From positions 310,001-374,000 of the forward strand of contig JAGTXO010000021.1 of the NCBI GenBank assembly GCA_019448385.1: a stretch of 64,000 nucleotides of DNA. Direction: 5' to 3'. Numbering within the stretch: position 1 is the first letter of the stretch; each line of letters starts with the position of its first letter. Below, piece by piece: positions 1,354 to 64,000 of this stretch. The notes below the pieces were generated by a model. It was not told the DNA's origin and did no database searches. It was given only the letters and a program-made list of their open reading frames with translations. This stretch comes from Diacronema lutheri (taxonomy: Eukaryota > Haptophyta > Pavlovophyceae > Pavlovales > Pavlovaceae). The position numbers and the translations under genes were made by a program.

Positions 1354-2587
1354 GTGCAGAGATGGGCGCGGCCCCACTGTCATGATGATCATGTTACTTA
1401 CATCCTGGAGACCCCGGCGTGACATGCAACACAGACGCGATGCCAACACCGGGCGACGGCTGCCTCGCAAAATTTGATGTCACGCCGCGTCGCGCCGGCT
1501 CGAGCCCGAGCGCGCCATTCATGCCGCCGTCGAAGGCATTCCTCTCCACGTGCCCCGTGGATGGCTTCTCAAACCAGCTTCTTGCGCTGTTCGCCGCGGC
1601 CGCGCTGGCGCACGACCTTGGTGGCCTCCCGTTCTGGATCCCGCCGTTCGTCGTTGACAACCTCGTCGAGCAGCACCGAAACGTGCCGGAAGCGAAGCGC
1701 GCGAGCTTTTGCGCATTATGCTACGAGCACGTGGCGCGCGCGCGCACCATCCCTGCGGACGAGCTCGTCAACGTCTCACGCATCGAGGCAGTGGGCGGCG
1801 TGCGCTTCCCGGCCAGCGCCCTGGTCGGCCAGAGCTTCCATCGCTCGCGCGTCGTGCTCGACGTGTGCAAGATGCAGCTCCACGGGCTCGTGTTTGGCGG
1901 CACACACTGTGAGCCACCGGACCGCGTCGGCGCTGCGTCGATGGGCGCGCGCGCGCGGATCGCCGCGCAGGGGGCGGCCACGTATGCCTGCGTACGCGAG
2001 GGCGTCTCGCGCTCCCTCTTGAACGCCTCGTCGACGGCTGCGCCCCTCTGGGTCCGCGTCGGCTCGGCCGTACGGCCCTACTTTCGGCTATGTGGATCCC
2101 CGCCCCGCCGTTTCCCTGCCCTCTTCGAGCCGAGCGTTGCGGTCTTGGCCGTGAGCGACGGCGTGTGGCCGCGGGTGCTGCGCAGGCGGACGAGCCTCGC
2201 CCTCAATTGTGGCCCGCGTCGGCCCGCGCCCGAGCCACCGAAGCGCACGGAGCGTGCGTGTGCGCACATTCGCCTTTCGCTGCCCGGCGAGCCGAAGGGC
2301 TGGGACAAGCTCGGCTCGGAATTCACCGAGGCGATCCCCGAGCAGGTGGTTGCGCTGCGCAAGTGGCTCGCCGCCATGCTTCCGAAGCAGGTGTCCGTGC
2401 TCATCCTGTCCGACGCGCCGTGGCTGCTGCAGCGCCTCATCCCCGAGCTCGGCGATGCGAACGGATGCGGATGCATGGCCACTGGTCGGTGCGTCTTTGC
2501 TGAATCTGTCCTCGACAACCTCATCGAGGAGCACGCGCGCGTGACGAACGTGAGCACTTCGGAGCCCTTCCGCGCGGCCACATCGCA

Positions 2588-2639
2588 TCCGAATTTCGGG
2601 ATGCAGCGAAGTTCCGGAGTTCGGACTTCAATTCATCTG
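2588..2639 (+). mobile_element. 52-bp exact copy of the MULE right terminus
   Basis: This segment is identical over all 52 bases to 4821-4872, the terminal 52 bp of the right inverted repeat of the neighbouring MULE. It is bracketed by the direct repeat CATCGCA (2581-2587 and 2640-2646), as a target duplication would be. It lacks a second terminus, so it is not a two-ended element. It could be a minimal mobile derivative, the product of abortive transposition, or templated repair. Confidence 0.8.
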
Positions 2640-2968
2640 CATCGCAGCTCGCGTGCTCGGTCGCAGGCCACTTGCTGCTCACGCCAAGCTCGACGTTCAG
2701 CACGATCATACGGCTGCACGCGCTGCGACGCGCGCAGCCGACCAGCTTGGTCTACACGCAGGCGCGCGTTGACTTCCAAGCGCCCGCCGCCACTTTGCCC
2801 CTCCTGTCGCAACTGCGCCGTTGCGCCGGGGCCGAAAGCCGCGAAGCAGACGACGAGGCGCGCAAGGTGTGCATTGTCGCCGCGGTTGTGCAGGCGCTGC
2901 GTGCAACGTCAATGCAGCTCGAGCACTTGCACTCACGTAAGGGTGCGCGCACACGGGCCCCATTTTAC

Positions 2969-3251
2969 CAGATGAATTGAAGTCCGAACTCCGGAACTTC
3001 GCTGCATCCCGAAATTCGGATCGCAAGACTGCGCAGTACTTGCGGTCCGAATTTCGGATCGCACACGCGCGGCGAGTCCTAGATTCCGGAGAGCAGAAGC
3101 GTCGCCGTGATCCTCGCGAGTGAGCGCAATGGCGCGCGTGCCGCGCCCGCTACGCATGCCCTGAACACCCTCACACCCGCCCACGCCCGCGCGACGCACG
3201 CCGAACGCGCGCGCAGGCCCTGGCCGCGCCGACGACCACGCGCGCGCGGCG
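2969..3251 (+). repeat. MULE left terminal inverted repeat
   Basis: The reverse complement of 4590-4872 matches over the full 283 bp with about two substitutions. Near the outer end there are shorter palindromic blocks built on TCCGAATTTCGGA, which may be transposase binding sites. Confidence 0.9.
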
Positions 3252-4166
3252 ACCGCTCGCGTTCCCGGCCGCGCAGCCGGCGGCGACGCTGATGATGACG
3301 CACACGACACGGACGGCGCAGACGAAGCTGACCTGCCGGCCGGGGATTTTGATGGCATTGATCTCGCCGAGCGCCTGGCGACGAGCCTCCAAGGTGAGGA
3401 CGACGGCGCGTACGTACGCTTTGAACCGGGCACCATCCGCTTGGCCGACCTGAACCTCTTGCCAGACGAACCGCTCGTCTGCCGGCAAACGACGCTCGTG
3501 AGCTGCTCATGCCAATACCCCATCTCGCACGGGTGAGCAGCCGTGCGCAGCCGCGCGCAAGTACGCAGGCGCAGCGCTGCAGAGCTCGCACTTCTGATCC
3601 ACCGCCTGCCCGGCATCCGCGCGCGCCCGGCCGCTTCATGCGCAGGGCTCCGTGCAGGCACATGCTCGCCGTGCGCTTCAAGTACCAGCTCGACAACCGC
3701 ATCGTCGACCCGCTCACGGCAGAGGACTTCGCTCTTGGCTGGCGTGTGCGCGAGCAGGGCTGGATCAACGGGCGCGTCGCCGATCTGCGCTTCCGGCCTC
3801 GCCAGCAGGCGCCTGGCAGCGGCAGTTCGATCCCGCTCACCGCGGCTGAGCGCGAGCAGGCGATCATGAGCCAGCTGCGCCCATTGGCGCGGCTGTGCGC
3901 GAAGTCGGAGAAGCACACGACTGGCCTCATCACCGTCAGCCGCACCACGTCGACGCGTCGAGCCTGCGACCGGCATCACTACGCTGAACCCGCGCAAGCG
4001 GCCGGCCTCTGCAGCTGTGGAGGGCATCCCTCACATCGATGAGCTCGCTAAGCGCACCACTGGGGCCCAGCAGAAGAAGCGCAAGCCAAACGTTGGCGCG
4101 CCGCGCAAGGCCAAGGAGAGAGCGAGCGCGGACGCAGGTCGAACGCCGGCGCGGGCGCTGGATTGA
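3243..4166 (+). pseudogene. MULE transposase C-terminal fragment with SWIM zinc finger
   Basis: An open frame from 3243 reaches a donor at 3533 (GTGAGC). The acceptor at 3645 rejoins it in phase to give CSCQYPISHGAPCRHMLAV. This is a textbook CxCx(n)CxH SWIM finger as found C-terminal to the DDE domain in MULE/FAR1-type transposases. The following RFKYQLDNRIVDPLTAEDF stretch and a basic tail (LNPRKRPASAA, QQKKRKPNVGAPRKAKE, ending at 4166) also fit that family's C-terminus. The frame changes once between about 3930 and 3980, by a second intron or a frameshift. There is no ATG before the SWIM region and no catalytic domain, so this is a remnant and not a functional transposase. Confidence 0.75.
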
Positions 4167-4589
4167 GCGCGGGGGCGGAGTCGAGCGCGGGCGCGGGTTC
4201 GAGCGCGGGCGCGGATACAACGCGGGTGCGGGGTCGCGGCGCGGGCGCGAGCGTGGGGGCGGGCGCGGATGCGGGCGCGGACGCGGAGGCAGAGGCGCGA
4301 CGACAGGCACGGCGTAAACACTAATGCAGGCTCTTATATGAACGTTCAATCATGCATGCATCGCGGAAGTGGAGGGCATCTGAACTTCCCCACCAACAAG
4401 CAGCACGCGGTGTGTGCTTGTCGCCTCTTGCTTCTTCGCCGGCTCGTGCCAATGTACCGCCGAGGCGCGCAGGCTTCGTTGCGCACAGATGTCGGACAGC
4501 ACGGCACGCAACAAATGCTAGCCAGGGCAATGTCCATGCCCGAATAGGTCGCCGCCCGTGATCCCATGGCCGTGTACGCGGCGAACGTG

Positions 4590-4872
4590 CGCCGCGCGCG
4601 CGTGGTCGTCGGCGCGGCCAGGGCCTGCGCGTGCGTTCGGCGTGCGTCGCGCGGGCGTGGGCGGGTGTGAGGGTGTTCAGGGCATGCGTAGCGGGCGCGG
4701 CACGCGCGCCATTGCGCTCACTCGCGAGGATCACGGCGACGCTTCTGCTCTCCGGAATCTAAGACTCGCCGCGCGTGTGCGATCCGAAATTCGGACCGCA
4801 AGTACTGCGCAGTCTTGCGATCCGAATTTCGGGATGCAGCGAAGTTCCGGAGTTCGGACTTCAATTCATCTG
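4590..4872 (-). repeat. MULE right terminal inverted repeat
   Basis: This is the partner of 2969-3251. Its outermost 52 bp also occur alone at 2588-2639. The flanking 9-bp duplication CCATTTTAC follows at 4873-4881. Confidence 0.9.
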
Positions 4873-5024
4873 CCATTTTACAGGAGGCTCACGCACGCAG
4901 CACGCGCAAGGGCAAGTCTCGGGTCGGGCCCATGCACGAGGCCTGTAAGATGGGCCCATGCATGAGGCCCATCAAGGTCGAGAAAGGTCCCCTTCTTACA
5001 CTCACGACCCTCCGTGGCGTGCAT

Positions 5025-8000
5025 TCAGCGTCGCCTCCCACGCGCCCGTTCAATCGTGTCCGCCTCCTCGGAAACCATCGGGGACGAGGCCGCGTTCCAA
5101 ATCGGGTTGCCTGCGCGGTGGTCGACGCGCGAAACGTTGGGCATCATGCCTCAGCGCGGCGAGCGTCGCAGCGCCGCCCTACCCCGCAGCCATCCACGAG
5201 CACGTGCCTTCGCGAGTTGGGCGATGCAGCGCTGCGAGGGCGGACACCACGCTGTGCGCGCCCGAGCATGCGCTGACGGCCCCGCACAAGCGCGCGAGGA
5301 GAAAGGGCCCTTTCTCCTTGCTTGCGATGCGGCGTTGCGTTTGCACGTCGCCACGCGCGGACGCCGCGCAGCGCGCGCGGCGGTCCGTTCGTGGTCTGTG
5401 CGGCGCGCACCCATGAGCGGCCCGTGGTTGCCCGCGACCGTCGAGTCAAAGACAGTGCCCGCCGGACCTTCGTTGAGCTTCCAGTAGCCGACGAGGCCCT
5501 GCTCGCTGCCCGTCAGGTGCTGCGTTCCGTGGCACACCATGCGCGCGATGCGGCAGGGGCGCGCGATTTTGCGAGCGCAGTGGGGTACTCACCCGCGTCA
5601 GCGCCGATTTGCGGCCACAGCGGCGAGCGGGCGCCCCCCCACGTATCCTTTTTTTTCCCGTTTTTTGGGGTGTTTGCGCGGCGAAGGGGGGGGGGGGGGG
5701 GCAGCGGCGCGCAAGGCGCGCAACGCGGATGCAGCGCGCCGCACCCGCCGCATGTCCTCGCGAATCGCGTCGGCTGTTCGCGCAAAGTTCCACACGCGCA
5801 GCTCGGTCACGACGCCATGGAACGCGCCCATCTGGTCGCCGGTGCGCGCGCCGATGAAAAGCCGATCAAGCCCGCCCAGAAGTGGGCCGATCGGCACGGC
5901 GCGCACGTCGTCGTCGTAGCCGTTGATGAAGAGTGCGATGGAACCATTGGAAGTGGCCGTGCCTGCGACGTGCGTCCACGCGCCTGCGCGAATTGACGAA
6001 ATGCACATACGTACAATTCAAAAAGGGGTGGTTGGGAGAGGCGCGCACGGCTTGGGCTGAGCGCGCGTGCGCGCTCGAGCGGAGGGCGCGGGGCCGCGCG
6101 ACCGGCCAGGAGAGCGCGCGCCGGCCTCCAGTGCATGCCGCCCAGGTACGGGGAACGGCAGGTACCGGCACTGCCGCATCCGCACTGCCAGGAGCGGCTG
6201 GCTCGCGGCGGCGGGCTTCGGCGCGCACCCAACTTGATGCTCGTGTTCGACTCGAGGACGACGCGCTCCCCCGACGCGAGCAGCGTCGCGTGCTGCAGCT
6301 TGCCGCGCTCGTTCATGCGCAGCTGATGTGACCACGTCGCTTGAGGGTAGGCCTCGTTTGAACGGCAGATGAGGTTCATCCCGCCTATGGAGTGTAACGG
6401 ACGCACCCATGCTTCGAGGGTGTACGCGCTGGGCACGAGGGAGGGCGGGTGTGGGACCATCACCTCGTCCTTGTCGCCGTCAAACTCGAGCTGGAAGCCC
6501 CCAAAGCTGGCCTGCAGCACGTCGTCACGCACGACACCGTTCTCGACGCCGCCGATCACAAGCGCGCGGCCGTCGACGAGTTGGAGGCTGCCGCCGGCGC
6601 GCGCGGCGGTCGACTCCCACAACGTCCAGCGCATGCTGTTCGTGTCGAGAAGCGCGAAGGCGTTTGATTCGCCCGCAGAGTCGTACCCGCCGAAGACGAC
6701 GAGGGTCTCACAAAGGAGGGTGCATGCATGCAGCCAGCTGCGGCGCCGTGTGCGCGACGGGGGCGGGCGTTGGTTGGCGGTGGCGGGAGGGGAACAGGGG
6801 CGAGGGAGGGGAGGGGTGAAGCGGGTGGACGGAGGTGCGAGATGAGACACGGGTCGGGGACGAAGCATGTTGGAAGGGGGGGGGCGGGGGAGGGGGGGGG
6901 GGGGGGGGGGGGCGCGCGGCGCAAGGCGTGGTAGTGGTGGTGGGGGGGGGGGGGGGGGGGGGGCTGTCGCACGCGAGTGACCGGCGGTGGTGGTGGTGGG
7001 GGGGGGGATTGGGGGGGGAGGGGGGGGGAGGGGCCTGTCGCACGCGAGTGACCGGCGGTGGTGGTGGTGGGGGGGGGGGGGGGGGGGGGAGGGGGGGGGG
7101 AGGGCCCTGTCGCACGCGAGTGACCGGCGGTGGTGGTGGTGGGGGGGGGATTGGGGGGGGGGGGGGGGAGGGGGAGGGGCCTGTCGCTCGCGAGTGACCG
7201 GCGGTGGTGTTGGTGGGGGGGGGGATTGGGGGGGGAGGGGGGGGGAGGGGCCTGTCGCACGCGAGTGACCGGCGGTGGTGGTGGTGGGGGGGGGGGGGGG
7301 GGGAGGGGGGGGGGGGGGAGGGCCCTGTCGCACGCGAGTGACCGGCGGTGGTGGTGGTGGGGGGGGGGGGGGGGGGGGGGGATTGGGGGGGGAGGGGGGG
7401 GGGGGAGGGCCCTGTCGCACGCGAGTGACCGGCGGTGGTGGTGGTGGGGGGGGGGGATTGGGGGGGGAGGGGGGGGGGGGGGGGAGGGCCCTGTCGCTCG
7501 CGAGTGACCGGCGGTGGTGTTGGTGGGGGGGGGATTGGGGGGGGGGGGGAGGGCCCTGTCGCTCGCGAGTGACCGGCGGTGGTGGTGGTGGGGGGGGGAT
7601 TGGGGGGGGGGGGGGGGAGGGGCCTGTCGCACGCGAGTGACCGGCGGTGGTGGTGGTGGGGGGGGGGGATTGGGGGGGGGGGGGGGGGGGAGGGCCCTGT
7701 CGCACGCGAGTGACCGGCGGTGGTGGTGGTGGGGGGGGGATTGGGGGGGGGGGGGGGGGAGGGCCCTGTCGCACGCGAGTGACCGGCGGTGGTGGTGGTG
7801 GTGGGGGGGGGATTGGGGGGGGAGGGGGGGGGGGGGAGGGGCCTGTCGCACGCGAGTGACCGGCGGTGGTGGTGGTGGGGGGGGGGGGGGGGGGGATTGG
7901 GGGGGGAGGGGGGGGGGGGGGGAGGGCCCTGTCGCTCGCGAGTGACCGGCGGTGGTGGTGGTGGGGGGGGGGATTGGGGGGGGAGGGGGGGGGAGGGCCC

Positions 8001-8091
8001 TGTCGCACGCGAGTGACCGGCGGTGGTGGGGGGTGGGGGGGGGGGGGGAGGGGGGGGGGGGGCTGTCGCACGCGAGTGACCGGCGGTGGTG

Positions 8092-8122
<31 letters not shown>

Positions 8123-10501
8123 GGGGAGGGGCCTGTCGCTCGCGAGTGACCGGCGGTGGTGTTGGTGGGGGGGGGATTGGGGGGGGGGGGGGGAGGGCCC
8201 TGTCGCTCGCGAGTGACCGGCGGTGGTGGTGGTGGGGGGGGGATTGGGGGGGGGGGGGGGAGGGCCCTGTCGCACGCGAGTGACCGGCGGTGGTGGGGGG
8301 TGGGGGGGGGGGGGGGAGGGGGGGGGGGGGGGGGCTGTCGCACGCGAGTGACCGGCGGTGGTGGTGTGGGGGGGGGGGGGGGGGGGGGGAGGGGCCTGTC
8401 GCACGCGAGTGACCGGCGGTGGTGGTGGTGGGGGGGGGATTGGGGGGGGGGGGGGGGAGGGGCCTGTCGCTCGCGAGTGACCGGCGGTGGTGGGGGGGGG
8501 GGGGGATTGGGAGGGGATTGGGGGGGGGGGGGGGGGGGGGGGGGCTGTCGCACGCGAGTGACCGGCGGTGGTGGTGGTGGGGGGGGGGGAGGGGAGGGGC
8601 CTGTCGCACGCGAGTGACCGGCGGTGGTAGTGGGGGGGGGGGGGGGGAGGGGCCTGTCGCACGCGAGTGACCGGCGGTGGTGGTGGTGGGGGGGGGGATT
8701 GGGGGGGGGGGGGGGGGAGGGGCCTGTCGCTCGCGAGTGACCGGCGGTGGTGGGGGGGGGGGGGAGGGGCCTGTCGCTCGCGAGTGACCGGCGGTGGTGG
8801 TGGTGGGGGGGGGATTGGGGGGGGGGGGGAGGGCCCTGTCGCACGCGAGTGACCGGCGGTGGTGGTGGGGGGGGGGGGGGGGGGAGGGCCCTGTCGCACG
8901 CGAGTGACCGGCGGTGGTGGTGGGGGGGGGGGGATTGGGGGGGGAGGGGGGAGGGGGGGGAGGGCCCTGTCGCACGCGAGTGACCGGCGGTGGTGGTGGT
9001 GGTGGGGGGGGGGGGGGGGGGGGGGGGGGGAAGGGGCCTGTCGCACGCGAGTGACCGGCGCGGTCGATTCCGCCGGCCACACGGCGCGCGCGCACCGCTC
9101 CCTCGGCACCTCGCCGCTCGTCTTGACCACCGACCACACGCCGCCTCCGTGAAGGGCCGTGTCAAAGACGCACACATCGGCAAAGATGGAGTCCGACACG
9201 GAGTCCGGCGCCGAGTCCGGCGCCGAGTCCGGCGCGCCAACGTTGGCTGCGCGCCCGCCGTAGACGAAGAGCTTCTCGCCGACAGCGACCATGCTGTGCC
9301 CAAGGCGCGCGCGCACGGCCGTCGACGCGGCCGAGATGCGCGCGGGCTCCCACTGCGGCAGCGACGTGCCCGTGCCGAGCGTGTGCAGTGACGCTGTGAC
9401 GGTGACGCCCGTCCAACCGCCGAAGAGGAAGAGGGTGTTGCCCACGGCCGCGGCGGCGGCGAAGGAGCGCGCGCCGGGCTTGAGGCCCGACGGTCGGAGC
9501 TGCTGCCACTCTGTCGTCGCCATCTCAAACGCCCACAGCCCGTCGAGCGGCGCGCTGCTCGGCTCAAGGCCCGCGCCGGACTCGCCGCCGTAAATAAAAA
9601 GCCTCGTGCCAATCAGCGCGCACGCCGCGCCAAACGATGGCGGTGGGCTCGGACCGTCGGCGGCGGTCGCATCGGACCACTTCATACGGTCCGTGTGCAG
9701 GATCCGGATCGCGTTCGACGGCCGCTCGTCGCCCATCGTGCCACCAATCACGAGCACGCGGCGGCCGATGGCGACGGACGCGGCGCATGCGATTGGGCGC
9801 GGCGGCGCGCCAGAGAGCGTCGGCTGGTTCCACTTGAGGCGGATGATCTCGGGCTGGCGCGTCACGATCGTTTGAAACGGCGAGCCCTCGATGTTGAGGC
9901 CCTCCAGCTCGACAAAGGCGGAATAGGTGCCCACAGCCGCGAACGTGACCGACGCGTGATACGAGCCGTCCCCCAAGTCGCGGATCGACGTGGCGGCGGG
10001 CGCTGGACCCTCGGTGCGCACGACGAAAAGGTCGCCGCCGTTGCGCGTCAGGCTGCCGTACGTGTCGCGCGCGATCACGAACACGTGCATCGTCTCGTGC
10101 ACGACCGCGTGCCCGACGCCGCGGCCAGTGAACATGCAGCGTACGGCGGACGCGCCCTGCGAGACGAGGAAGGGCGACGTGCCGAGCGGCATCTGCGTGA
10201 CACTCGCGCCAAGTGCAAGCTTGTCGTCCTCCTGCACGCGCACGAACACGTCGTCGCCGTCGCGCACCACGCGCGCGATGATCTGGTTTGCGAGCAGCGC
10301 GGAGCCATCCGCCGCCGCGACGCCAGTCGCGACGTGCTTCTGCGAGAGGCGCTCGCCCGCCTCCGTCCCGTAGCGCTGGAGCGCGACGAGCGCCAGCCAC
10401 TTGATCCGCTGGTTTCCCTCGCCGCACTCGACGACGATCACGTCGTCGCGCACGTGCACGCGCACGCGCATGGCCTCGGCGACCAACGCGCCGAGTGCCA
10501 C
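5025..10501 (-). CDS. Filamin-repeat / Kelch / LamG-jellyroll protein
   Basis: Five exons (9081-10501, 6229-6737, 5745-5983, 5411-5519, 5025-5149) join with fully consistent phases into an 800-aa protein. Residues about 110-220 form a filamin/ABP-type immunoglobulin repeat (DGSYHASVTFAAVGTYSAF). Kelch repeats follow, with the signatures RVLVIGGTMGD, RLFIYGGES, TLFLFGGWTG, KLFVYGGRAANVG and, across the giant intron, TLVVFGGYDS. The C-terminus is a LamG/concanavalin-like jellyroll (YTLEAWVRPL, WTHVAGTATSNGSIALFING, EQGLVGYWKLNEG). There is no signal peptide or membrane segment, suggesting a cytoplasmic scaffold. Exact partners are unknown. The start at 10501 lies 40 bp from the start of the divergent LRR gene. 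The last exon is the least certain part of the model. Confidence 0.8.
6738..9080 (-). other. 2.3-kb intron expanded by a minisatellite
   Basis: The donor GTGGCC lies at 9080 and the acceptor CGCAG at 6738. Splicing gives RERCARAVW followed by LHACTLLCETLVVFGG, restoring a Kelch blade. It is about ten times longer than other introns in the window because of the repeat array at 6870-9065. Confidence 0.8.
6870..9065. repeat. Minisatellite array, about 31 units of 50-90 bp
   Basis: Each unit holds a conserved core on the + strand, CTGTCGCACGCGAGTGACC followed by GGCGGTGGTGGTGGTG, with a CAC/CTC variant (TCGCAC or TCGCTC). Cores are separated by long G-runs that often contain one GATTGGG. I count about 31 cores. 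The array contains no stop codon in any of the three minus-strand frames over most of its length, which creates proline-rich open frames that are not genes. The + strand has very high G-quadruplex potential. Confidence 0.95.
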
Positions 10502-63226: not shown

Positions 63227-64000
63227 ATGAAAGCCCGCCGGCGCACGGAGGACGCGGGCGACGAGCGCGGGGAGGAGGGCGAGGGTGAGGATGTGGAGGA
63301 CGGCGCGCCGCGCTCGCCCGCCGCCGAGCCCATCGATGACGACCAGCGGATCTACCGGTGTGAGTACGCCGGGTGCAACCAGCGCTTCAAGCACTCGAGC
63401 GCGCTCAATCGGCACCTGCGGCGACACACGGGCGAGCGGCCGTACGCGTGCGCGCACCCAGGTTGCGGCAAGGCGTTCCGCGAGTCGGGCGCGCTTGCGC
63501 TCCACGAGCGCGTCCACACGGGCGAGCGGCCGTTCGCGTGCCTGTTTGTCGGCTGCGGCAAGGCGTTCAAGGCGTCGGGCGCGCTCAGCCGGCACGGGCG
63601 CGTGCACACGGAGGAGCGGCCGTTTGCGTGCGAGTTTGCGGGCTGCGGCAAGGCGTTCAAGGACTCGTGTGCCCTCACCGTCCATCGCCGCGTCCACACG
63701 GGCGAGCGACCATACGCGTGCGAGTTTGCGGGCTGCGGCAAGCGCTTCAAGGAGTCCGGAACGCTCAGCCGGCACGAGGTGCTGCACGCGCGCAAGCAGT
63801 GCGGCCAGCTGTCGCGGCGCGAGGCGGCGTCGGCCGCTACACTCGACGCCCAGGCCGACGCGGCCGCCGTGCTTCTCCCGTTTGCGCTCGGCCAGCCGTT
63901 GCCGGCCGCGCCTGCCGCGCTCGGCTACACGATCGGCACGCCCGTCGCGTCCGCTGCCGCCGGCGCGGCGGGCGCGGGTGGCGGCGTGAGTGCGCCGGCC
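63227..64000 (+). CDS. C2H2 zinc-finger protein with five TFIIIA-type fingers (3' partial)
   Basis: The frame runs off the window end. It starts MKARRRTEDAGDERGEEGEG, an acidic N-terminus, and then has five fingers with Cx4C-x12-Hx3H spacing: CEYAGCNQRFKHSSALNRHL, CAHPGCGKAFRESGALALHE, CLFVGCGKAFKASGALSRHG, CEFAGCGKAFKDSCALTVHR and CEFAGCGKRFKESGTLSRHE. Four canonical linkers of the HTGERPYAC type separate them (one is HTEERPFAC). All Cys and His ligands are intact. The visible C-terminal part is Ala/Pro-rich. The paralogous fingers suggest internal duplication. It is a likely sequence-specific DNA-binding protein, though RNA binding as in TFIIIA cannot be excluded. Confidence 0.9.
   Translation, partial: MKARRRTEDAGDERGEEGEGEDVEDGAPRSPAAEPIDDDQRIYRCEYAGCNQRFKHSSALNRHLRRHTGERPYACAHPGCGKAFRESGALALHERVHTGERPFACLFVGCGKAFKASGALSRHGRVHTEERPFACEFAGCGKAFKDSCALTVHRRVHTGERPYACEFAGCGKRFKESGTLSRHEVLHARKQCGQLSRREAASAATLDAQADAAAVLLPFALGQPLPAAPAALGYTIGTPVASAAAGAAGAGGGVSAPA

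Follow-up and report, generated by a model that had tools for sequence, protein, structure and literature searches.

The element at 2969–4872 of the window (the whole 64-kb stretch analysed, C88 310001–374000 of Diacronema lutheri) is very probably a non-autonomous Mutator-like element (MULE) that has lost its 5′ and central part, has kept both terminal inverted repeats (TIRs) and was moved by the transposase of a longer relative. It is 1,904 bp long and is called the window copy, or the C88 copy, below. A 9-bp target site duplication (TSD) was found at all three complete copies of this element, its TIRs are 283 bp long, and longer members of the family at C53, C78 and C85 encode the DDE domain. 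MULEs generate TSDs of 8–11 bp, usually 9 bp, and their TIRs are often long, though some MULEs have none; a SWIM finger follows the DDE domain in many MULEs but not in all.

In the mechanism we propose, the 5′ and central portions of a parent transposon, the DDE catalytic domain among them, would have been deleted and both TIRs retained, transposase from a longer relative would bind these TIRs and cut the derivative out (cut-and-paste), and insertion via a 9-bp staggered cut would generate the TSD. Since the window copy carries no MULE transposase domain, it could have moved only in trans, and we infer both this mobilisation and the cut-and-paste route from what is known of MULEs.

Ends, interior and copies of the element

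The element starts with CAG and ends with CTG, and a perfect 9-bp TSD, CCATTTTAC, abuts these ends on both sides (Table). The chance of a 9-bp match at a given place is approximately 2e-5 at the base composition of the window. The TIRs are identical at 281 of 283 positions, the mismatches being at TIR positions 111 and 241, and an inverted-repeat search gave gap-free arms of 292 nt (287/292 identical); among the ungapped inverted repeats that it returned for the 64-kb window, this one was the longest. Removal of the predicted GT-AG intron yields an interior that reads SCSCQYPISHGAPCRHMLAV, a SWIM motif of the form CxC-x6-GxPCxH. Hence, the TIRs with about two differences, the flanking 9-bp repeat and the spliced SWIM motif given in the preliminary description were all recovered, and the remnant of a transposase C-terminus that it had reported agrees with the Pfam search, in which SWIM was the only match in the spliced frame and the MULE domain present in C53, C78 and C85 was not found. 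The SWIM match (PF04434, E 0.0012) scored 18.8 bits, under the curated cut-off of 19.6, and the assignment is thus based on the motif and on homology and not on the curated score; a related transposase of the same genome in which the SWIM motif is unsplit (C76) scored 19.8.

Table. Coordinates of the element, of the TIR-derived stretch upstream of it and of the host gene region, in window positions
Feature	Position	Strand	Basis
Host gene region, stop-to-stop frame from 1389, hit twice	1389–2968	+	
CATCGC, putative first 6 bp of the TSD of an earlier insertion	2581–2586		
53-bp TIR end, identical to TIR positions 1–53	2587–2639	-	
CATCGCAGC, putative complete 9-bp TSD copy from the earlier insertion	2640–2648		
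Left TSD, CCATTTTAC	2960–2968		sequence
Left 283-bp TIR, begins CAGATGAATTG	2969–3251	+	inverted-repeat search; genome matches
Subterminal palindrome in left TIR (19-nt arms, 11 nt between)	3009–3057		
Interior, 3′ part of parent transposon from the inner TIR edge on	3252–4589	+	alignment
Transposase exon remnant, ends in CxC half of SWIM motif	3253–3532	+	
Predicted GT-AG intron splitting the SWIM motif, 113 bp	3533–3645	+	
Last transposase exon remnant, CxH half of SWIM motif	3646–4120 (right end approximate)	+	
Right 283-bp TIR	4590–4872	-	inverted-repeat search
Subterminal palindrome in right TIR	4784–4832		
Right TSD, CCATTTTAC	4873–4881		

We considered whether the SWIM remnant might still be coding and rejected this, because the frame of the first exon remnant contains no ATG ahead of the motif and the frame is shifted after it, in the last exon, where 7 bp are inserted near 3947 relative to C85. 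In all, 28 substitutions separate the interior from that of C85, together with six alignment gaps, the 7-bp insertion among them and the final one lying at the alignment end. The window copy has no transposase of its own and is not an autonomous MULE. A search of solved structures with the C76 protein returned none at E up to 1. A viral carrier was rejected as well, as none of the nine pattern matches obtained when viral contigs were scanned with a transposase frame from a sister family at C4 was confirmed as a relative.

The palindrome near the end of the TIR folds strongly as single-stranded DNA (z -7.8 for 2969–3060 of the window and -6.1 for C53), a TIR-like stretch at C86 gave z -3.8, and the initial 100 bp of the sister family element at C4 gave no strong subterminal hairpin (z -1.0). 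Searches of the 64-kb window using the Rfam gathering thresholds and of the same window for tRNA genes each gave 0 matches.

Two repetitive regions lie elsewhere in the window. Tandem arrays at 6941–9060, with units of approximately 50–120 bp (71 bp in the longest array), are very G-rich on the plus strand (GC skew 0.64–0.68 over 7001–9000) and lie inside a minus-strand frame of 1,570 aa, in which they read as long proline runs; this frame matches kelch and filamin and, weakly, laminin-G. At 63425–63756 there are 90-bp tandem units, whose consensus we take to resemble C2H2 zinc fingers.

The genome (43,492,796 bases in 103 contigs) was searched with the TIR and with the interior of the window copy. 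The TIR search that the preliminary description had called for gave 47 matches including the window's own, a good part of them to the internal palindrome, and the interior gave 40, again including the window's own (68 candidates, 40 scored). Among the interior matches, the sister family accounts for five at 66 % identity, and its GC-rich repeat for the majority of the weaker matches. The closest copies are those at C5, C9 and C69, which are 99.4–99.6 % identical to the window copy (8 and 7 differences for C5 and C9, and 11 over 1,866 positions for C69), and the four form a young group. Only element positions 241, 987 and 1072 are private to the window copy among them. Three of the four, the window copy and those at C5 and C9, are complete at 1,904 bp and are flanked by three different perfect 9-bp TSDs (CCATTTTAC, GAGTGAACG and CGCGGAATT, respectively). 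In the C69 copy the left end is rearranged and a clean TSD is absent.

More distant copies are damaged or incomplete. Those at C34 and C75:1349188 include the same deletion junction at approximately 94 % identity and are both damaged, and the 9 bp to the left of the C34 copy are not repeated within the stretch compared. The copy at C75:1363894 represents a second deletion type, with a TSD identified by eye beside an altered TIR end (CCTGTCGAG and CCTATCGAG, matching at 8 of 9 positions). No TSD was found at the solo TIR fragments at C82 (268 bp) and C9:1975683–1975746 (64 bp). Five further pieces (C5:934556, C82:1460993, C74:367018, C34:56360 and C4:579793) include only the inner TIR, from position 92–116 on, at 79–84 % identity, and C86:1023705 includes TIR positions 22–280 at 77 % and is without the outermost end; none of these six TIR-like pieces forms an ungapped inverted repeat of at least 60 nt. 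Five TSDs chosen by hand, including the one that matches at 8 of 9 positions, have a G+C content of 24/45 against 72 % for the window (binomial 0.005), which is a hint only.

TIR sequence in a host gene and changes shared between TIRs

A further piece of TIR, which was absent from the preliminary description, lies 329 bp upstream of the element in the frame of a host gene. This 59-bp stretch (2581–2639) consists of a 53-bp TIR end, identical in several copies, and 6 bp that match part of a TSD, and it shifts the frame of the host gene. The gene has no significant Pfam family. Its DNA is conserved with a paralogue over 1443–2900, ending short of the insertion site at 2968, and the element at 2969 lies beyond the conserved part, shortly downstream of a possible splice donor at 2937. 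When the paralogue (C75:1495247–1495873) was compared to the window, it aligned on both sides of the 59-bp stretch and did not include it; on the paralogue the two alignments share 4 bp, which fits an excess of exactly 59 bp in the window. With the 59 bp omitted the host gene reads on, and 466 residues align without a gap at this place, at 68 % identity. The stretch is best read as the scar of an imperfect excision of another copy, which would have broken the host gene frame, and, as the rest of the frame is open, this probably happened recently. It is conceivable that the element at 2969 is itself a short hop of the copy that left the scar.

It is unlikely, though it deserves weighing, that the 59 bp are instead filler DNA, a copied TIR piece having patched a break in the host gene and the 6-bp repeat having arisen from repair or by chance. 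TIR-end fragments without a direct repeat do occur in this genome, namely the 64-bp and 268-bp solo fragments at C9 and C82, and approximately 54 bp at the left TIR edge of C53, absent in C78, suggest that break patching probably occurs here. However, the fragment in the host gene stops precisely at the TIR terminus, and directly after it comes CATCGCAGC, the first six bases of which also precede the fragment, a match with a probability by chance of approximately 7e-4, and this is the pattern expected if one copy of a 9-bp TSD had lost 3 bp on its inner side. We thus favour imperfect excision.

The TIRs of individual copies share changes. Eight bp of TIR that are present in C34, C53, C78, C82, both pieces of C85 and C75:1363894 are missing from both TIRs of the window, C5, C9 and C69 copies, and the C9 copy has a change at position 40 in both its TIRs. 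At TIR position 111 the left and right TIRs differ not only in the window copy but also in the C9 copy, which leaves the window copy with a single private TIR mismatch out of its two. On the simplest reading of these patterns, the TIRs would have been homogenised when sequence was copied from one TIR of an element to the other, as happens in gap repair; for the 8-bp difference, recurrent slippage is a possible source. Because changes are common to both TIRs of a copy, divergence between TIRs is not a clean clock, and its use for dating was rejected.

Longer relatives and a sister family

A search of the genome with the MULE transposase domain PF10551 gave 20 matches, 17 of them above the cut-off. 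Three of the relatives found, at C53, C78 and C85, have the TIR and the 3′ coding part in common with the window copy and include PF10551 over the cut-off (E 8.6e-17 for the C53 exon), upstream of the same intron-split SWIM finger. Candidate acidic residues lie in stretches reading FDTTWG, TDGD and SES, as identified by eye. These TIR-sharing relatives, together with the copies flanked by TSDs in the same genome, bear out the Mutator-like identity first proposed from the window.

The C53 and C78 relatives are 98.8 % identical from the TIR on, and each runs from the left TIR through the MULE domain into the 3′ part as far as derivative position 1094, beyond which no right TIR was found in the stretches compared. 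In C85 the 3′ part is contiguous with the right TIR, and it is 96.4 % identical to the window copy over 1,636 aligned positions, with element positions 285–1904 aligning as a single piece. Hence, the window copy looks like an internal-deletion derivative of an element whose length, when C53 and C85 are combined, is estimated at approximately 5.3 kb. Approximately 3.4 kb would have been lost, with the left break, as placed by eye, at the inner edge of the left TIR.

Two irregularities were seen in these relatives. The C85 copy is split into two pieces in opposite orientations, 440548–444976 and 468319–469126, which overlap by a few bases, such that its first 808 bp lie approximately 23 kb beyond its right TIR; this looks as after an inversion or an assembly fault, and no matching TSD was found at its two ends. 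The additional 54 bp or so in C53 (L031 1202–1267 versus L032 6461 for C78) are bounded by a repeat of AAAGCAGATGAAT and look like a patched break at a transposon end.

The coding state of the relatives was judged against the transposase frames of the C4 element, C85 being compared from C4 residue 132 on. C53 has in-frame stops at two well-aligned places and an N-terminal frame change, C78 has an in-frame stop at one well-aligned place, and each has two further stops in the poorly aligned N-terminal stretch. C85 has no in-frame stop other than one common to all three, which lies in a presumed intron. Though the search for a full-length transposase called for by the preliminary description did recover relatives with the MULE domain, none of the copies of the window element's family that we examined is both whole and coding-intact, because C53 and C78 are without a right TIR and include stops, and the first 808 bp of C85 are detached. 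Hence, we infer the source of the transposase. The dN/dS values (NG86) of 0.29 for C85–C53, 0.35 for C85–C4 and 0.29 for C4–C13 hint at constraint; they cover 200 codons, the first ones aligned around the MULE exon, some of which may be non-coding, and C4 and C37 showed no differences.

The sister family is represented by a 4,410-bp element in C4:326500–335000, and related DNA is also found at C13, C37, C92 and C93. The C4 element has long open transposase frames (PF10551, E 3.2e-16). It resembles the window family in the MULE domain, in a SWIM motif that is split by an intron at the same place (by eye) and in a 9-bp TSD, GTCGAGTTG, on both sides of the one sister copy examined. The families share 71 % DNA identity over the aligned transposase stretch, and they differ in their TIRs, which in the C4 element are 416 bp long, 99 % complementary and have another end, CGGGCAAATTG, compared to 283 bp in the window family. 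PF10551 matches with equal scores at C9:166827, C13:182846, C33:712099 and C34:546179, each in an open frame of 899 aa, are perhaps a further MULE family.

MULEs tend to acquire fragments of host genes (PMC6446971), and the interior of the window copy carries only a gene fragment, which raises the question of whether the element is a Pack-MULE, with a captured piece of a host gene, for example one of SWIM type, between MULE TIRs. This is very improbable and was rejected for the interior as aligned, because the interior comes from the parent element: it aligns in one piece with C85, running into the same right TIR, and C85 encodes the MULE domain upstream of the aligned part. Inverted repeats are a known hazard for assembly, but misassembly or a segmental duplication is scarcely credible as the origin of this one, because the assembly is from PacBio reads and the complete copies lie on three contigs with three different flanks and three different perfect 9-bp TSDs. 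The published assembly of D. lutheri NIVA-4/92 is described as PacBio, polished with Illumina reads, with a stated theoretical coverage of x368 (PMC8379373).

Comparison with known systems

Internal-deletion derivatives of MuDR in maize were reportedly attributed to interrupted gap repair by Hsia and Schnable in 1996. These derivatives resemble the window copy in that internal sequence was lost and the TIRs were kept. Unlike them, the window copy would have lost its approximately 3.4 kb from the inner edge of the left TIR.

Among algae, the MULE-Cc groups of red algae are listed in a row of Table 1 of a MULE survey with TIRs of 244 and 640 bp, TSDs of 9 bp and not indicated, and SWIM (PMC6446971). 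They and the window family are alike, by description only, in the 9-bp TSD, TIRs of hundreds of bp and a DDE domain followed by SWIM, and they differ in their hosts, which are red algal and haptophyte, respectively. Neither "Haptophy" nor "Emiliania" occurs in the main text of that survey. Approximately 22.9 % of the D. lutheri genome is reported as repeats, with LTR and LINE elements the majority of those annotated, and "transpos", "Mutator" and "MULE" are absent from the main text of the genome paper (PMC8379373). The Mutator passages in a paper on Tisochrysis lutea (PMC10138859) are entries in its reference list, on maize work and on chromatin. In the titles and opening lines of abstracts of the open-access papers that our searches gave, we found no description of a MULE from a haptophyte, Emiliania huxleyi included.

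The kind of element described here is well known, and what is new is one more member of this kind in a little-studied haptophyte host. More informative are the scar and the linked changes in the TIRs. More tentatively, the MULE system of this haptophyte might still be jumping, with a transposase of the C85 type or from the sister family moving the 1.9-kb derivatives, imperfect excisions breaking genes and conversion acting between TIRs. The analysis gives a haptophyte MULE family with good support, which includes relatives that code for transposase, recent copies and what is likely to be an excision scar. Because the C5 copy lies 101 bp before the first in-frame ATG, the predicted start, of a frame matching a Na/H exchanger, and the C9 copy 237 bp before that of a frame matching a La-domain protein, MULE copies near genes could be a source of mutations in this aquaculture alga.
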